Shown: positions 6,310-59,239, counted from the stretch's first letter. The stretch is DNA of 64,000 nucleotides from an uncultured Armatimonadota bacterium (GCA_903927025.1 CAIYLG010000047.1:1-64000); one strand, 5' to 3'. Program-made: numbers and translations. The notes: a model not told the origin generated them from the letters alone.

Positions 6310-6322
6310 GCGCAAGTTGACT

Positions 6323-6342
6323 CGCCCGGAACCAACCGGGCG
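6323..6342 (+). other. Small hairpin after the oligoendopeptidase gene
   Basis: CGCCCGG and CCGGGCG are separated by 6 nt, immediately after the M3 peptidase stop. There is no U-tract, so it may stabilise the 3' end rather than terminate transcription. Confidence 0.3.
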
Positions 6343-6395
6343 ATAAGGTGAAGTTCCACACAACCGTGAAATACAACAGGGATTCGCAACGAGGC

Positions 6396-8246
6396 ATGAA
6401 TGACCTGCGGCCGCTTATCGCAGAGGCGCGCCAGCTCTTTTCGATGGGCCGGGCTGATCAGGCTGAGTCGATGCTGCTTCAAGTGGTTGAACAACATCCT
6501 CGTGAGCTTCAGGCAGTGGTGGCACTAGGCATCGTCGCGGCAGAAACGGGTCGGCCGGATGAGGCGCTTCAAAGGATGCGACAAGCCCTCAGCCTCGATC
6601 CACGCTGCGTGCCCGCATTGTGTTGGGCATCACTCCTCTTGCTTCAGACAAATCAACTTGATGAGGCCCGCCGGTGTGCCGAACTGGCGGTCTCGGTGGC
6701 GCCTCAGGTTTCTGCCTGTCACGTTGCCCTTGCACGGTGCATGGTGTACCAAGGGATGGCACCCCAATCGCTTGCGGTGTGGAAGCGCGCGATGGATCTC
6801 AATCCAACCGATCCCAGCGTGCAGTACGACTACGCCGATGCGCTGATTGCCTCTCGTGAGTGGATCAAGGCCACCGAGCTGCTCAAGAACGCAACGGCGA
6901 TGGCTCCCAACCCTCGCGGAATGACTCGACTGGCTTACTTGGAACTTAGGCTGGGCAACATCGACAACTCAGAGCGGACCTGTCGCCGTATTCTAAAGAA
7001 GGACCCTGAGTCCGCAGAAGCGCACGTCCTCATGGCGCGAATTCTCACCGAGCAGCTTCGCTTGGATGAAGCGGAAGAGCATTGGGCCAAAGCGACAGAA
7101 ATTGGTGCGATGCCAGGCTTTCTGCCTCGTGAAAAGGCGCTTTCTCTCAGTGCGATCGGGCGATTTGAGGAAGCCATCGAGTTTCTCAAGAAGTCACTTG
7201 AAGAAAAGCCAGACCAGGGCGAGGCGTACCAGGCCATCACGTTTGCCAAGCGTGTCACCCAGGAAGACAGGCCGATGGTCAAGCAGATGGAAGACCTCCT
7301 TGCCTCCGGCAAGCTGCCGCCCAACGAGCAGCAGTTTCTGCTCTATTCCCTTGGCAAAGCCTACGACAACCTTGGGGAGTACGAGCGTGCCATCGACACC
7401 TTCAACCGTGCGAATGAAACTAAGCGGCGAGTCGAACTGATCCCACCGTTTGATCGAGTTGCCTTTAAGCAGCGAATCGACTCGAGCATCAAGATGTACA
7501 GCGAGGCGCTGTACGCCAACGAGAAGATTGAGCGGGCCACATCGGACCTGCCGATTGTCATCGTGGGCATGATGCGGTCTGGAACGACCCTTGCCGAGCA
7601 GATGCTTTCTTGCCATCCACAAATTGGTGGAGCGGGCGAACAGCACTATTGGGGCGAGCATGAAGCGGCAATGGTGGACCTCCAGAGACAGACGTTCAAC
7701 CAGTCTCAATTGAAGTCCTGCGCTCGGGGATACGTTGAGCTGTTGACGTCAATTGCGCCCGGATATCCCCACGTCATCGACAAGAACCCGGCCAACATCA
7801 TCGGAGTCGGCTCGCTTCACCTTGCGTTGCCAAACGCTAGGATCATCCACACGCGAAGAAATGCGATCGATACGGCTCTGTCGATTTGGATGACGCCGAT
7901 GAATACCAGCGCAGAATTTATTTGCGATCGCGAAGCCATTGTGGATGCCTACAAAGAACTGATTCGACTCATGGACCACTGGCGGGAAACGCTTCCCAAG
8001 GATCGGTTCATGGAAGTGAACTATGAGGATCTTGTGGAGGCGCCCGAGGTGCACATGCCGAAGCTGGTTGAGTTCTGCGGTCTTGAGTGGACGGATGCCT
8101 GCCTGCACCCGGAACTGAACGAGCGGCGTGTACGAACGCCTAGCCTTTGGCAGGTGCGACAGCCGGTCTACAAGACCTCAACCGATCGCTGGAAGCGATA
8201 CGAGCCGTGGCTCGGAGCATTTGAGGGATTGCGGGGCCTGAACTAA
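6396..8246 (+). CDS. TPR-repeat sulfotransferase
   Basis: About 616 residues. The first ~330 are tandem TPR-like helical repeats (for example AVVALGIVAAETGRPDEALQ, SAEAHVLMARILTEQLRLDE). Residues ~390-610 are a sulfotransferase domain. The PAPS 5'-phosphosulfate loop is VGMMRSGTTLAEQM. The 3'-phosphate motif is likely ARIIHTRRNAIDTALSI. Such TPR-sulfotransferase fusions are common in bacteria with complex envelopes and may sulfate peptides, lipids or glycans. The acceptor here is unknown. The start at 6396 (MNDLRPL) is preferred over an upstream GTG at 6348. The following hairpin is oriented mainly for the opposite strand. Confidence 0.85.
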   Translation: MNDLRPLIAEARQLFSMGRADQAESMLLQVVEQHPRELQAVVALGIVAAETGRPDEALQRMRQALSLDPRCVPALCWASLLLLQTNQLDEARRCAELAVSVAPQVSACHVALARCMVYQGMAPQSLAVWKRAMDLNPTDPSVQYDYADALIASREWIKATELLKNATAMAPNPRGMTRLAYLELRLGNIDNSERTCRRILKKDPESAEAHVLMARILTEQLRLDEAEEHWAKATEIGAMPGFLPREKALSLSAIGRFEEAIEFLKKSLEEKPDQGEAYQAITFAKRVTQEDRPMVKQMEDLLASGKLPPNEQQFLLYSLGKAYDNLGEYERAIDTFNRANETKRRVELIPPFDRVAFKQRIDSSIKMYSEALYANEKIERATSDLPIVIVGMMRSGTTLAEQMLSCHPQIGGAGEQHYWGEHEAAMVDLQRQTFNQSQLKSCARGYVELLTSIAPGYPHVIDKNPANIIGVGSLHLALPNARIIHTRRNAIDTALSIWMTPMNTSAEFICDREAIVDAYKELIRLMDHWRETLPKDRFMEVNYEDLVEAPEVHMPKLVEFCGLEWTDACLHPELNERRVRTPSLWQVRQPVYKTSTDRWKRYEPWLGAFEGLRGLN

Positions 8247-53371: not shown

Positions 53372-55165
53372 TTACTTGGCGTGAGGGGAGGCGATGGGGG
53401 TAAGGAGGTCTGGTTTGGTCGAATCACGCTCAAGGTGCGGGTAGCGGAGGCCCTGCGAATACTTGACGGTGATCGCGTGATAGCCTTCATCCCCGGTATC
53501 CACGAGCAGGTTGATTTTGCCTGAGGCAATCGCTTCCTTCAGCCTATCTGCGGTGTACTTGTACCCGTCTACCGAGATCAGCTTCATGGCTGGACTGAGG
53601 CCAGCTTTGGCTGAAGCGGAGCCGGGGAGCACGTCGCGAATGCTGCCATCCTCATCCGTGCTCATTCCAATTGAGAAGAGGAAGGAGGCACCTTTGTTGC
53701 CCTCGTACTGCTTTGCGGTGTCGTTCGGCTTATCGCTGTAGATCAACTTCCAGCCCGACTCTGTGATCCCCTTGATTGGCGAATGGGGCTGCACGCTGTA
53801 GACGCGCTCATGAAGGAAGCCTGCCCAGTCATACGGAGCAATCGCGTTGAGTCCGGAGACAACGTCATCAAACGTGTACGTCTTGAGCTGAGGGCCGGTC
53901 GAGGTACCGCCGTGGAATAGCTTGCAGAAATCATCGAGACTCTTGTTCCCGCCCGTAAGCTGGGTGATCTTGACGTCTGCCTCGAGCCACACCAGCACCA
54001 TTTCGTAATAGTAGTCCGCGCTTCGCCGAGCAGACGACCAGGCGGGACCTCCTCCGAACAGCAGCTGGACGCTGCGTGCGGTATCCACCAGCGGACGCCA
54101 TGAGCGCCCCTGCGTGTATTCCATCACCGCCGCAATCTCCGCGAGGGCGTCTCGATAGTTCTCCTGAGACCACAGACCGCTGCGCGGATTCAGAGTTGTT
54201 CCGATGAATTCAGTCATGCCTTCGTAAACCCAAAGCAGATCTCCGTGCATCGGATCTTGGAAGTTAGCAGTGGCAAGATCGGCGGGCCGGCGGTATTTGC
54301 CATTCCAGGAGTGGGTGTACTCGTGTGAGAGGAGATAGCCAAGATAGCGACCATCGAGTTCGTCTGAAAGGGAGTCCTCCGCGGTGCCGTCCTCGCTGGT
54401 TTCGTGATGTTCCAGTCCGTCGTCTCCGCCATGACCGCTTAAGGTGAGGAGGAATCGATAGGAATCGTAGTGATGAGCCCCAAATAGGGCTTGAGCTTCG
54501 CTGATCAAATTTTTGAACTTGGCCACGGATTCAGGCTTTGCTTCAAGAGGCTTCTGAGAATCTCCAAACAGCTCAATCGCTTCCTGATCCCCAACCTGGA
54601 TGTGCTTGGTATATCTTCCGATGAGGGCAGGCGAGTCCACCAGACGAGTGAGGGTGACGGGATCGAACAAGACGTGGCCATCTCTGCTTGGTTCTCTTTT
54701 GAGGGCGGTGGCACAGTGCCAGCCGTTGGGCAATGTTAGCGAAGGCTTAACCTGAACAGAATCGCTGGTGACGCCCTGGGGATACAGCACGAGGCGGTTC
54801 CATTTGATTCGACAGAAGTTGGGACTACCAATCGTATTCCCCTTAAAGGCGAGGTCAAAGTCGGCAACGACCTCATGCACTCCTTCCGGAACGTTGAGAT
54901 GGAACGCAAACATCTCAACGTCGTCCCGTTGCCATGGAATCTCCTTTCCGCCTGCATGGAAGTGGAGTCCGACCAAATCATTGATTGGCCCGGTCGGGCT
55001 GTGCTCTCCCGGAATCCACTTCGGATACACCACGGTGAACTGACCGGGAGCAGCAGGGATCGAAATGTGCGAGTGGATGAAGCTGCGGCCGGCCATCCGA
55101 GCATCAACATCCAGCTTGATGACCCCCTCGAACGCAAGAGCTTTGGCAATGAGCAAAGAAAGCAT
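53372..55165 (-). CDS. M61 family peptidase with PDZ domain
   Basis: About 597 residues. The N-terminus is a signal peptide (LSLLIAKALAFEG). A beta-sandwich (~30-200) precedes a zinc domain with H281-E-Y-T-H285 (LLSHEYTHSWNGK) and the distal Glu in LLWVYEGMTEFIGT. A PDZ domain at ~490-580 contains VLPGSASAKAGLSP. This is the glycyl aminopeptidase M61 order, acting outside the cytoplasm. The ATG at 55165 is preferred because an earlier frame (to 55360) would overlap the divergent gene. Confidence 0.9.
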   Translation of the reverse strand: MLSLLIAKALAFEGVIKLDVDARMAGRSFIHSHISIPAAPGQFTVVYPKWIPGEHSPTGPINDLVGLHFHAGGKEIPWQRDDVEMFAFHLNVPEGVHEVVADFDLAFKGNTIGSPNFCRIKWNRLVLYPQGVTSDSVQVKPSLTLPNGWHCATALKREPSRDGHVLFDPVTLTRLVDSPALIGRYTKHIQVGDQEAIELFGDSQKPLEAKPESVAKFKNLISEAQALFGAHHYDSYRFLLTLSGHGGDDGLEHHETSEDGTAEDSLSDELDGRYLGYLLSHEYTHSWNGKYRRPADLATANFQDPMHGDLLWVYEGMTEFIGTTLNPRSGLWSQENYRDALAEIAAVMEYTQGRSWRPLVDTARSVQLLFGGGPAWSSARRSADYYYEMVLVWLEADVKITQLTGGNKSLDDFCKLFHGGTSTGPQLKTYTFDDVVSGLNAIAPYDWAGFLHERVYSVQPHSPIKGITESGWKLIYSDKPNDTAKQYEGNKGASFLFSIGMSTDEDGSIRDVLPGSASAKAGLSPAMKLISVDGYKYTADRLKEAIASGKINLLVDTGDEGYHAITVKYSQGLRYPHLERDSTKPDLLTPIASPHAK

Positions 55166-55253
55166 GAGGTGAATTATCCAACAATCGATGCCCGACAGGC
55201 GTGATGCAAATAAATCGAACTTGTAAACAGAAATCTTCGTCTGCTTTCTTAAG

Positions 55254-56231
55254 GTGAGACACACAGCTGTGATTCCGATTGGGGCAATTCTCCTCACTGG
55301 AGCGGTCGCCTCGCTGGCCCAGATGCGCCGGCAAGTCAACGTGATTGACGCTACCGTCACGGATTCTTACTTCTCTGTTGAGACAGGAGAAGTTAAATTA
55401 CTGGGCGTCTGTGACCTGCTGAAGCCAGAAGTAGAGTGCTGGGACACGAACGGACACCTCAGTGCAGAACTCAATAAGCAGGTTCTGGAAAAGCTCAAGA
55501 CTGCCGCCACCCACAATGGAATCGGACAGGCTGAGATCCCGATGGTCTATAGAGAGAAGAACCGCATCGCCGTCTTTGATGTCCCAAATCCGACAGGCAC
55601 CAAGCCGGCAGGCATCTTCTCAGGAATTGATACGAAGGATGGATACCATCCCAACCCGATTAGCTTCTACTGGGAACCAAGGCTCGAACATCGCATTGAA
55701 CTGGTGCCCATTCACACAGATCGAGCCGAAACCACCACGATATTGTTCGCTCAGTTCGCTGTTCCAGTAAGTGGTAGTGCGTTCTTGGAAGCCAAAACCG
55801 GTGCCACTGCCGCGGTGGGCTCGTACACAATCGCAATGGGAGAGCCTCTCGAAGTTCAGCCTGGAACCCTTCCGATGTTTCAGCCTGGGCCGAATTGGTG
55901 GGCGCCAATTAAGTCCGTCAGTCCGGGATCGATGGAACGAGTCCACGTTCAGCTAAACGCAGTCGACAAAAAGGGGGCTTTGGTAGCAAGCGTTGACGCT
56001 TCCGGAAGACCGATGAAACCGGCTAAGCCCCTCACAATGCCTCAATATCCCTTTGATCCCACCGGGCCAAGGTTTGTGTTTACGACAGTGAACAGCAACT
56101 TTGAAGATTCCCTTCACGGCTGGCGACTGCAGACCAATGTGAATCCCAAGGAAGTATCCGGCTACAACGTCACTGTCCTAGTGGATCGAACGATTCGCTT
56201 CACTAAGGTTCCCCTCGACCCCATTCGCTAA
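55254..56231 (+). CDS. Exported paralog A1 of the A-B-A-B array
   Basis: 325 residues. The GTG start GTG-AGA-CAC is shared with A2, and a signal peptide (AILLTGAVASLAQ) is clear. It carries the family core: TVTDSYFS-x-ETGE-...-GVC53-x8-C62-W. The EKNRIAVF motif at ~100 and a C-terminal FTKVPLDP complete the pattern. Beta-rich with two conserved cysteines, possibly a disulfide. It is transcribed away from the M61 peptidase and followed 13 nt later by B1. I recognise no family. An envelope role is likely; the function is unknown. Confidence 0.75.
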   Translation: MRHTAVIPIGAILLTGAVASLAQMRRQVNVIDATVTDSYFSVETGEVKLLGVCDLLKPEVECWDTNGHLSAELNKQVLEKLKTAATHNGIGQAEIPMVYREKNRIAVFDVPNPTGTKPAGIFSGIDTKDGYHPNPISFYWEPRLEHRIELVPIHTDRAETTTILFAQFAVPVSGSAFLEAKTGATAAVGSYTIAMGEPLEVQPGTLPMFQPGPNWWAPIKSVSPGSMERVHVQLNAVDKKGALVASVDASGRPMKPAKPLTMPQYPFDPTGPRFVFTTVNSNFEDSLHGWRLQTNVNPKEVSGYNVTVLVDRTIRFTKVPLDPIR

Positions 56232-56244
56232 CAAGGAGCAGACG

Positions 56245-57207
56245 ATGAACACATCACTGAGCACATTGACGAAGATTGCCGCTCCTCTCGCGACCGGCAT
56301 GTTTCTGGTGGGGTTTGTTGCTCGAACCGAAGACCCCTTCGCATCCGCTGTTGTCGACCGTACCTATGAATCTGCCGACCTTGGCAAATTAGAACTTGCG
56401 GGCGCCTGCACGATTACTCCCGACAACATTTCTTGTTGGGATCCAGATGGCAAGCCAGCCCCTAACCTTTCAGAGAAGGTGCAAGCGTACTACATCGTGC
56501 AAGGCGGGAACGAACTCCGTTTGAAGTTCGGACGCAAGAACCGACTGATTGTGTTCAAAGAGCCCCCACGGGGGAACCCCAACGGCGCCTACCTTGGTCA
56601 GGCCAAGACGCTGGGTGGGCAGTACATGAATCAATTCGGCACTATTGGGATGGGAGGCTACGGCAACGGAGATGCCACCACGTGGTACCTGACTGACTCG
56701 GAGCCAACCCAAGAAAAAACCTCAGTCGTATTTGAAGTCAATGTTCAGTTTGGCAGCGCGACCGTCCCAGTAAAGGCGGGATCTCAAGCGACTCTGGGCC
56801 CCATCAAGGTGAAGATCGAAAGTATTAAGCCGGGACCTGATCGCAAGCAGAACTGGGGACCCAACCCAGCGAAAGGACAGAAGACTTGGACGGTGACGGT
56901 TACGTTGGATGGAACGATTGGCGGCAAGTATCCAACCGTGAACGGTTCGGTGATCGGTTCAGATGGTCAGGCAGTGTGGTCCGTTTCGGCAAGCGGAGTG
57001 CCGACTCCACGCCCCAAAGGTCCATTCTTCACTCCTCCGATGATGATGGGCGGATTCGATGGAAATGTGTTTCTGGCCTCCGGTGCCAACACCGCCAAAC
57101 AGGAACTCTCGGTGCCGGTAGATCCTAGTAAGGCTCACGCCATCGTGCTGTCGCTTGGCGGCACAAGACAGGTGACTTTCCAGAACATTCTGCTGGATCC
57201 GAAATAG
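56245..57207 (+). CDS. Exported paralog B1 of the A-B-A-B array
   Basis: 320 residues. The N-terminal hydrophobic segment (IAAPLATGMFLVGFVA) should export or anchor it. Core motif: YESADLG-...-GAC55-x8-C64-WD; then GRKNRLIVF, then GPDRKQNWG and QKTWTVTVT, ending VTFQNILLDPK. It is about the same length as B2 and closely similar throughout. It shares the C-x8-C-W and R/EKNR motifs with A1/A2, so all four are paralogs. No catalytic motif is seen. It follows A1 by 13 nt. Confidence 0.75.
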   Translation: MNTSLSTLTKIAAPLATGMFLVGFVARTEDPFASAVVDRTYESADLGKLELAGACTITPDNISCWDPDGKPAPNLSEKVQAYYIVQGGNELRLKFGRKNRLIVFKEPPRGNPNGAYLGQAKTLGGQYMNQFGTIGMGGYGNGDATTWYLTDSEPTQEKTSVVFEVNVQFGSATVPVKAGSQATLGPIKVKIESIKPGPDRKQNWGPNPAKGQKTWTVTVTLDGTIGGKYPTVNGSVIGSDGQAVWSVSASGVPTPRPKGPFFTPPMMMGGFDGNVFLASGANTAKQELSVPVDPSKAHAIVLSLGGTRQVTFQNILLDPK

Positions 57208-57219
57208 TCCGAAAGCCAT

Positions 57220-57251
57220 CAGGTTCGGTTAATGCAAATTAACCGAACCTG
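57220..57251 (+). other. Hairpin between the first and second A-B pair
   Basis: A 13-bp stem (CAGGTTCGGTTAA with TTAACCGAACCTG) has a 6-nt loop in the 74-nt gap between B1 and A2. No T-tract follows on the plus strand. It may lower read-through between the two pairs or mark the boundary of the duplicated unit. Confidence 0.5.
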
Positions 57252-57281
57252 AAAATCGCCTTAATCGTCTGATGGGTTACA

Positions 57282-58280
57282 GTGAGACACAGAGAAGTGA
57301 TTCTTACAGGGGCCATTTTGCTGTCAGCAGTGGTCGCTGGGGCAGGCCAAGTCTTTCGGCAATCATTCGTTGCAGACGACACGGTAACTGACTCGTATTT
57401 CTCAACTGACACTGGAGAGATACGGCTGGTCGGTGTTTGCGACCCGCTGAAACCCTCGCTCAAATGCTGGGGGTTGAATGCCAAGCCCAGCGCTGAGCTA
57501 GAGAAGGAGGTTCTGAGCGAGATTGATGTCAACTCGACGATCCGTCGGAATGGACCAGCGGTCATTCCGTTTCAATTTCGCAGGAAGAACCGGATATTGG
57601 TCTTTAAGCTCCCCATCAACAAGCCAGGACTTTTTCGGGCAAGCATTTCGGGGTTCTACGACACGGACGGCAACCAGCTCAACCAGCTGACTTATGGATA
57701 CGATGGGAACTCAAGCACGAAACTTGAGCTGTTCAACTTTCATGCCCCGCGCAATTCCACTAAGTCAGCAATTCATGTGTCACTTTCGATTCCCTTACGT
57801 GGAACGGTTGAACTTCCACCAAATTCGGTCACGGAAGCATCGGATGCGGACAAGAAAGTCAGTATTACGCGCACGCTTTTGCTGAAGCCGCAAGATGTCC
57901 GGTGGTATCAGGGCGGTCGCGGTTGGGTTGTGCTTTTTAAGTTGGAGGGAGACAGCCTTCGCTCTCGAGTCCATATGCACGTTGAGTCAATCAATGCAAA
58001 GGGCCAGCCAATCAATGAAGTCGATCTGAACGGCATGCCTCGCCCTCAAATTGTTTACAAGCCCGGTACACCGATCCCGCCTAACTTTGGCGGCAGACGC
58101 TTCATTTACCAAACTGACCCAGGGGTATTCGATCCCCAAACGGGCACGCGAGCCTGGCAAACACAAGTGAACCCAAGCGCAGTTCATCACTACCGGATCA
58201 CGTTCAGTACGGATCGGTCAGTGGAATTTCAGAACATCCCACTAGACGCCGGGCCCGAAAGCGGGAGCAAGACATCATGA
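57282..58280 (+). CDS. Exported paralog A2 of the A-B-A-B array
   Basis: 332 residues with the same GTG-AGA-CAC start and signal peptide type as A1 (GAILLSAVVAGAGQ). Core: TVTDSYFS-x-DTGE-...-GVC53-x8-C62-W, RRKNRILVF, and VEFQNIPLD near the end. It is clearly diverged from A1 outside the motifs. The end overlaps B2 by 4 nt (ATGA), whereas A1 and B1 are separated by 13 nt. The function is unknown. Confidence 0.75.
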   Translation: MRHREVILTGAILLSAVVAGAGQVFRQSFVADDTVTDSYFSTDTGEIRLVGVCDPLKPSLKCWGLNAKPSAELEKEVLSEIDVNSTIRRNGPAVIPFQFRRKNRILVFKLPINKPGLFRASISGFYDTDGNQLNQLTYGYDGNSSTKLELFNFHAPRNSTKSAIHVSLSIPLRGTVELPPNSVTEASDADKKVSITRTLLLKPQDVRWYQGGRGWVVLFKLEGDSLRSRVHMHVESINAKGQPINEVDLNGMPRPQIVYKPGTPIPPNFGGRRFIYQTDPGVFDPQTGTRAWQTQVNPSAVHHYRITFSTDRSVEFQNIPLDAGPESGSKTS

Positions 58281-59239
58281 ACATTCGAGGCAACAAATTC
58301 ATCCATGCGGGGGCTCCTGCTGCCGCCTGTCTTTCCCTTATGGGGTTCGCCGCTCACCAGATTGATCCGCTTGCGCCGGTGACAGTTGAACGGAGCTATG
58401 AATCTGCAGACTTAGGGCGCATCGACCTCATGGGCGCCTGCACGATCGGCCAAGACACAGTGTCCTGCTGGGATCCCGAGGGCAAGCTGGATGCGGACCT
58501 TTCGGAGAAAGTTAAGGCGTATTACATCGTTCAATCCTCGACTGAGATTCGGATGAAATTCGGCCGGAAGAATCGAATGATCGCGTTCCGAGAACCTTCG
58601 CGCAACTATGGAGGCGACGTTACGATCTCCAGCGTGAAGGGCGAGGGCAATCAGAATATGAACTCAGCCGGTCAGCTTCCCAACTATGGCGCAAACCGAG
58701 AACCGGTCCTCACTTGGTACGAGATCGATACCGACCCTAGCCAAACTCAGACCTCCGTTGGGTTTGATATCTCGGTGCGGATGGGTTCCGGGCTGCTACC
58801 CGTTAAGGAGGGCGCAGAGATTTCCGTGGGTCCCTTGAAGGTCAAAGTCACGGGGATTAAGCGAGGGCCAGATCGAAAGCAGAATTGGGGGGCCAATCCC
58901 AACGTCTCTCAGAAGACTTGGACGATAACCGTCACGGTAACGGGCTCGGTTGCTGGCAAGATCCCGAACATGTACCTGTACGGCGTTGACGACCATGGCA
59001 TGCAGGTGAGTCGCGTGGATGCGGGTGGGGCACCGATACATCCCAAGGTATCTGGCACCAATATGTACCAGCCGATTTCCGGTGGGTTTGATGCGCAGGT
59101 CTATTCGCTCAGCGGAGCTGGAACAGCTACGCAGGAGTATTCGTCGACAATTAACCCATCCAAGCTCTCGGGTCTCAATATCTCGGCGAGCGGCAGCCGC
59201 ATTGTAACGTTCAAGAACATCCTGCTTGATCCCAAGTAA
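58277..59239 (+). CDS. Exported paralog B2 of the A-B-A-B array
   Basis: 320 residues. N-terminal hydrophobic segment AGAPAAACLSLMGFAA. Core: YESADLG-...-GAC55-x8-C64-WD; GRKNRMIAF; GPDRKQNWG; QKTWTITVT; ends VTFKNILLDPK. Same length and motif positions as B1. The ATG overlaps the A2 stop by 4 nt, so A2 and B2 are translated together. It is the last gene of the array, and a short hairpin lies just after the stop. Confidence 0.75.
   Translation: MNIRGNKFIHAGAPAAACLSLMGFAAHQIDPLAPVTVERSYESADLGRIDLMGACTIGQDTVSCWDPEGKLDADLSEKVKAYYIVQSSTEIRMKFGRKNRMIAFREPSRNYGGDVTISSVKGEGNQNMNSAGQLPNYGANREPVLTWYEIDTDPSQTQTSVGFDISVRMGSGLLPVKEGAEISVGPLKVKVTGIKRGPDRKQNWGANPNVSQKTWTITVTVTGSVAGKIPNMYLYGVDDHGMQVSRVDAGGAPIHPKVSGTNMYQPISGGFDAQVYSLSGAGTATQEYSSTINPSKLSGLNISASGSRIVTFKNILLDPK

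Follow-up and report, generated by a model that had tools for sequence, protein, structure and literature searches.

Four consecutive genes in a 64,000-nucleotide stretch of DNA from an uncultured Armatimonadota bacterium (GCA_903927025.1 CAIYLG010000047.1:1-64000; hereafter the window) encode exported paralogs in the order A1-B1-A2-B2. The locus raises the question of what these proteins are related to, how the alternating array arose, and what such proteins might do outside the cell. A preliminary description, made from the sequence alone, had proposed an early split between A and B followed by duplication of the pair, had named no family with this pattern, and had offered three readings: a secreted A-B heteromer, a surface-layer or matrix element, or a variable binding protein.

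Layout and origin of the four genes

All four open reading frames lie on the plus strand at the positions first described (Table 1), and the cysteines and the tryptophan after the second cysteine occupy the residues originally assigned to them. A full-length alignment of the four proteins contains 31 invariant columns, including the C-x8-C-W core and the KNR motif, which was likewise present as described. The C-terminal motif reported as [FV]-x-x-[LI]LDP exists, but in the form F-x-x-[VI]-[PL]-L-D-[PA], with A2 ending in LDA. Identity is 36% between A1 and A2 and 48% between B1 and B2, and A is homologous to B, as a B1 query retrieves both A2 (E = 1.5e-13) and A1 (E = 8e-9). Third codon positions differ more (0.63-0.68) than second positions (0.34-0.41), indicating that these are real coding genes under constraint. 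A search of the organism's own 5.25-Mb genome recovered these four family members and no others.

Table 1. Features of the array and its leaders, in window coordinates
Feature	Position	Strand	Remarks
A1	55254..56231	+	Exported paralog, 325 aa; type I-like signal peptide
B1	56245..57207	+	Exported paralog, 320 aa; Shine-Dalgarno AAGGAG
A2	57282..58280	+	Exported paralog, 332 aa
B2	58277..59239	+	Exported paralog, 320 aa; AlphaFold2 model made
C-x8-C-W core of A1	55410..55442	+	C53, C62, W63
C-x8-C-W core of B1	56407..56439	+	C55, C64, W65
C-x8-C-W core of A2	57438..57470	+	C53, C62, W63
C-x8-C-W core of B2	58439..58471	+	C55, C64, W65
ECF-sigma-like promoter match GAAC-N17-CGTC	55217..55241	+	Begins 37 bp before A1 start; suggestive only
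Homologous GAAC-N17-CGTC match	57245..57269	+	Begins 37 bp before A2 start; suggestive only
Perfect 15-bp inverted repeat, 4-nt loop	57219..57252	.	Between B1 and A2; fold z = -5.4

The spacing of the genes follows the A-B units. A1 and B1 are separated by 13 bp and the A2 stop and B2 start overlap in ATGA, while B1 and A2 are set apart. In a maximum-likelihood tree of 50 distinct family members, A1 with A2 and B1 with B2 form sister pairs (100/100 each), and neither clade contains a gene from another species. Because about 50 bp upstream of A1 and of A2 are also homologous, the leader, A and B were duplicated as a unit. In the simplest history consistent with these sequences, A and B split early, and a single duplication then copied leader+A+B, approximately 2.03 kb in length. 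The tree, the homologous leaders and the tight A-B linkage thus agree with the order of events first proposed.

Both A genes begin GTG-AGA-CAC, which signal-peptide logic favors as the start. A second conserved GTG lies six codons downstream, and by eye AAGGTGAG / GTGAG stands at Shine-Dalgarno distance from it, so the conservation could partly be that of a ribosome-binding site. Further upstream, both A leaders carry GAAC-N17-CGTC, which is shaped like an ECF sigma promoter. Within the 120 bp preceding every family gene, GAAC and CGTC occur at a spacing of 17 four times and at spacings of 12-16 or 18-23 never, whereas shuffled sequences gave a mean of 0.11 and reached four in 0 of 500 trials. 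These four cases amount to three independent ones because the A1 and A2 leaders are homologous, and the element is a candidate ECF sigma promoter on suggestive grounds. The inverted repeat between B1 and A2 may be either a terminator-like hairpin or an operator; its left arm is missing from the A1 leader.

Distribution and turnover of the family

The family was found in 24 of 291 Armatimonadota genomes, at one to six copies each, and all 24 belong to one taxonomic family (Fimbriimonas and its kin), which is also that of the window. Many of these genomes carry a single family gene, and others carry arrays of six (G003), four (G009), three (G002), three plus one (G014) or two copies (G017 and G136). 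These arrays expanded independently of one another. One copy in the G009 array (L041, about 6319-7425) carries one in-frame TAA and is decaying among intact ones. A degenerate-pattern scan of genome contigs gave no match with the four window proteins as query and two same-genus loci with a genus-level query.

The predicted pairing of A with B in related genomes was not borne out. Relatives occur singly or in tandem, never in A-B order, and the A and B clades are free of relatives' genes, which partly bears out a refuting observation named in the preliminary description. Since the A-B order is restricted to the window's species while arrays occur elsewhere, the order is local and tandem diversification general. 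This distribution bears directly on the suggestion that A and B form an obligate secreted heteromer, the duplicated unit yielding a second heteromer of A2 with B2. The adjacency of A to B, the ATGA overlap of A2 with B2 and the duplication of leader, A and B together are what such a complex would lead one to expect, but an A-B pair occurs in no relative, both clades are species-specific, other genomes hold one to six copies of other lineages, and many manage with a single gene. We consider an obligate heteromer unlikely.

Comparison of the relatives' loci revealed no conserved neighborhood of the arrays beyond closely related species. Pfam assigns the neighbors of the window array to an M61 peptidase, a flavoprotein, a hybrid histidine kinase and a saccharopine-dehydrogenase-like protein. 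The M61 gene is glycyl-aminopeptidase-like and divergent to A1 (53372-55165, minus strand). It was considered as a partner and rejected: the G019 ortholog (65% identical) has no array beside it, and the G002 and G003 arrays have nearby M61 genes that are not orthologous to it.

A pair of sister species shows how quickly such arrays change. G013 and G014 have the same genes flanking their loci (L036/L037), and at one site where G013 has a single copy, G014 has three. Family proteins of the two species are 42-62% identical, while neighboring orthologs are mostly 75-95% identical, and dN is 0.29-0.53 for the family against 0.035-0.18 for the neighbors. For family ortholog pairs dN/dS is 0.23-0.35, and because this is below 1, relaxed constraint could account for the fast change.

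The family might accordingly consist of fast-evolving duplicates with no common selected role, turning over by birth and death. Its patchy presence, the broken G009 copy and the dN/dS values fit that description. Conservation of particular residues does not. The tryptophan (W65) is kept in all 49 members that span the site, and KNR and the C-terminal LDP are widely kept across the family; a codon pattern of purifying selection and repeated independent expansions also argue against it, and we judge this explanation improbable. The cysteine pair is kept in most members and lost jointly in several (A/A, F/A), as expected of a disulfide, though some single losses are also seen. C53/C62 in A and C55/C64 in B are suitably placed for a disulfide. 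Signal types vary as well: the four window proteins resemble ordinary secreted proteins, and close to a third of family members have a lipobox-like signal, including the gene that opens the array in G002 and in G009, and one of the G003 genes.

Relationship to M56 receptor ectodomains

Searches of Pfam, NCBIfam, PDB sequences and viral contigs returned no relative of the family, and a Pfam scan of 34 members gave no match. The original statement that no family is known therefore holds for curated libraries, but a relative does exist in the C-terminal ectodomains of M56 metallopeptidases. It came to light through a lead motif, VELVGVS-x8-WWRPDG (the 'WWRPDG' domain), which we take to be shared with planctomycete proteins. 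A query with this domain found no match among plasmid sequences; in Armatimonadota it matched proteins of 275-960 aa, several of them BlaR1-type M56 metallopeptidases, which led to the M56 ectodomain. In other Armatimonadota the domain has the pattern VELVGVS-x8-WW..G ... RPYEWxEFKNIPLDPK, whose end resembles the FKNILLDPK of the window family.

Profile comparison by HHalign aligned the family with nine M56-type domains over 235 columns (Prob 97%, P = 1.2e-10), and P ranged from 1.2e-10 to 2e-10 across family-versus-domain comparisons. Twelve column shuffles gave P of at least 0.3, five block shuffles at least 8e-4 and the reversed profile 0.11, so that all 18 controls remained at or above 8e-4. 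The four window proteins alone matched 21 domains over 222 columns (Prob 95.9%, P = 5.4e-9), and their best matches among single domains were these: a domain of G082 (P = 1.9e-6, 65 columns), the M56 of G025 (P = 3.2e-6, 214 columns) and an M56 of their own genome (P = 2.3e-6, confined to 38 C-terminal columns). By these profiles the window family is homologous to the M56 C-terminal ectodomain over its length, with a common W...G core and L-[DE]-P end.

That M56 protein of the window's own genome (L193:1719-3569, minus strand, contig C14) matches Peptidase_M56 at 2e-22, carries W-x-PDG followed by GKNR, and is preceded by a BlaI-type gene (4.5e-20) that overlaps its start. Two BlaI-M56 pairs were noted in this genome (G000), on C14 (L193:1716-3949) and C7 (L189:124-2777), and their M56 proteins carry sensor-type domains that are relatives of the family. 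Another nine M56 matches have other C-terminal regions.

By Pfam, none of the four window proteins contains an M56 zinc peptidase domain (HExxH) and no BlaI/Penicillinase_R gene adjoins the array, nor is there an M56 gene near it. In the distant genome G082, an M56-fused copy has two exported, stand-alone neighbors (275 and 283 aa), one of which shares 51% identity with its sister and 38% with the fused domain. Together with the profile homology, these copies show the family to consist of relatives of receptor ectodomains that occur apart from the receptor. Adjacency of stand-alone copies to an M56 gene was seen in G082 only, and in six family-carrying genomes (G001, G013, G018, G139, G141, G142) no M56 match reached E ≤ 1e-6, which argues that a fixed role as receptor partner is not general. 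Separately, four proteins of 618-656 aa (L133:3270-5144, L197:778-2748, L198:1318-3273 and L202:1903-3759) contain one or two M56-type ectodomains and no protease; they come from Fimbriimonas genomes (G004, G007, G012, G019) that yielded no member of the window family. Among the papers searched, none links BlaR1 with Fimbriimonas or Armatimonadetes.

Predicted fold, proposed role and known systems

AlphaFold2 was applied to two members of the window family. B2, modeled from 13 sequences (mean pLDDT 77, pTM 0.71), is predicted to be nearly all beta, with its two cysteines in neighboring strands (E47-57 and E62-65), and the model of a relative (pLDDT 81) has the same order of elements. Structure comparisons divide the B2 model into two separate sandwich-like halves, one comprising the C-terminal strand together with residues about 35-135, the other residues about 165-306; the middle of the family proteins aligns poorly. 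Foldseek found no solved structure for the whole of either model, and single-sandwich matches scored Z < 8 in VIA-align, the range of common sandwich arrangements.

Two exported beta-sandwiches could also suit structural surface or matrix components, of a surface-layer or adhesin kind, that diversify in tandem, and Foldseek did list adhesins and matrix proteins, among them RbmA, SdrD and ClfB, all at E > 0.01 and TM of about 0.2 or less. Pfam detected no SLH, sorting or repeat modules, the sequence kinship is with receptor ectodomains, and the structural matches reflect common sandwich arrangements, leaving the surface-layer or matrix reading of the preliminary description without specific support and, in our estimate, quite improbable.

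We favor instead, with a probability of roughly 55%, the explanation that the four genes encode exported proteins that stand alone and are related to an all-beta M56 ectodomain of two sandwiches, presumably binding proteins diversifying in tandem. Of the readings offered at the outset, a variable binding protein fits best with the codon pattern and the dN comparison. The A and B proteins of one unit would be made together, and each would be soluble, or elsewhere often lipid-anchored, and would bind a ligand in the periplasm or at the cell surface. Just as BlaR1 senses its ligand through its C-terminal domain, the extracytoplasmic C-terminal domains of Armatimonadota M56 proteins are by analogy presumed sensors, and the secreted copies may bind the same class of signals. 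As the family diversifies by tandem birth and death, its copies could come to recognize varying ligands or partners, either serving receptor proteases as co-receptors or carriers of ligand, or binding independently of them. A bolder version, which we think unlikely, is a free and multiplying pool of fast-diversifying ectodomains that serve BlaR1-type proteases as secreted or lipid-anchored co-receptors, ligand carriers or decoys in many-to-few recognition. If true, it would mean that receptor-protease ectodomains also exist as a free extracellular recognition pool.

These results open a way into an exported family that is unannotated and lineage-specific, in a phylum that has hardly been studied, and point out an M56 protease ectodomain missing from curated libraries. 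The link to BlaR1-type receptor proteases makes the question of the ligand testable, and the G013/G014 locus allows tandem birth and death and fast protein change to be studied within a conserved neighborhood.

Among known systems, the BlaR1-type receptors provide the functional analogy. In BlaR1 the C-terminal domain senses an extracellular ligand, after which BlaI is cleaved, and in Staphylococcus aureus this sensor is similar to a class D beta-lactamase (PMC7593790). Unlike these receptors, the window proteins have neither a protease domain nor a neighboring BlaI, and the class D beta-lactamase-like sensor of S. aureus is itself unlike the Armatimonadota M56 ectodomain. In structure comparison, YajI, SadB and DUF4352-like folds matched the models at Z 4.6-7.4 over about 100 residues, again within the common-arrangement range. 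DUF4352 proteins (PF11611; e.g., YjhA and YxkC) are, like the family, exported, and their Ig-like sandwich may have a counterpart in the family models (Z 5.9-6.3 over about 100 residues); as a parent family DUF4352 was rejected, scoring below the Pfam gathering threshold in 34 members and P = 0.049 by HHalign. The lipoproteins YajI and SadB are the top structural matches to B2 residues ~170-306 (Z 7.4 and 6.5), yet unlike the family they have one sandwich only, and no sequence relation to them was found. The closest likeness is to the C-terminal ectodomain of Armatimonadota M56 proteins (PF05569), which resembles the family in its N-terminal strand-loop-strand with an invariant tryptophan and following glycine and in its F-x-x-[IL]-x-L-[DE]-P end, with profile homology over most of the length.
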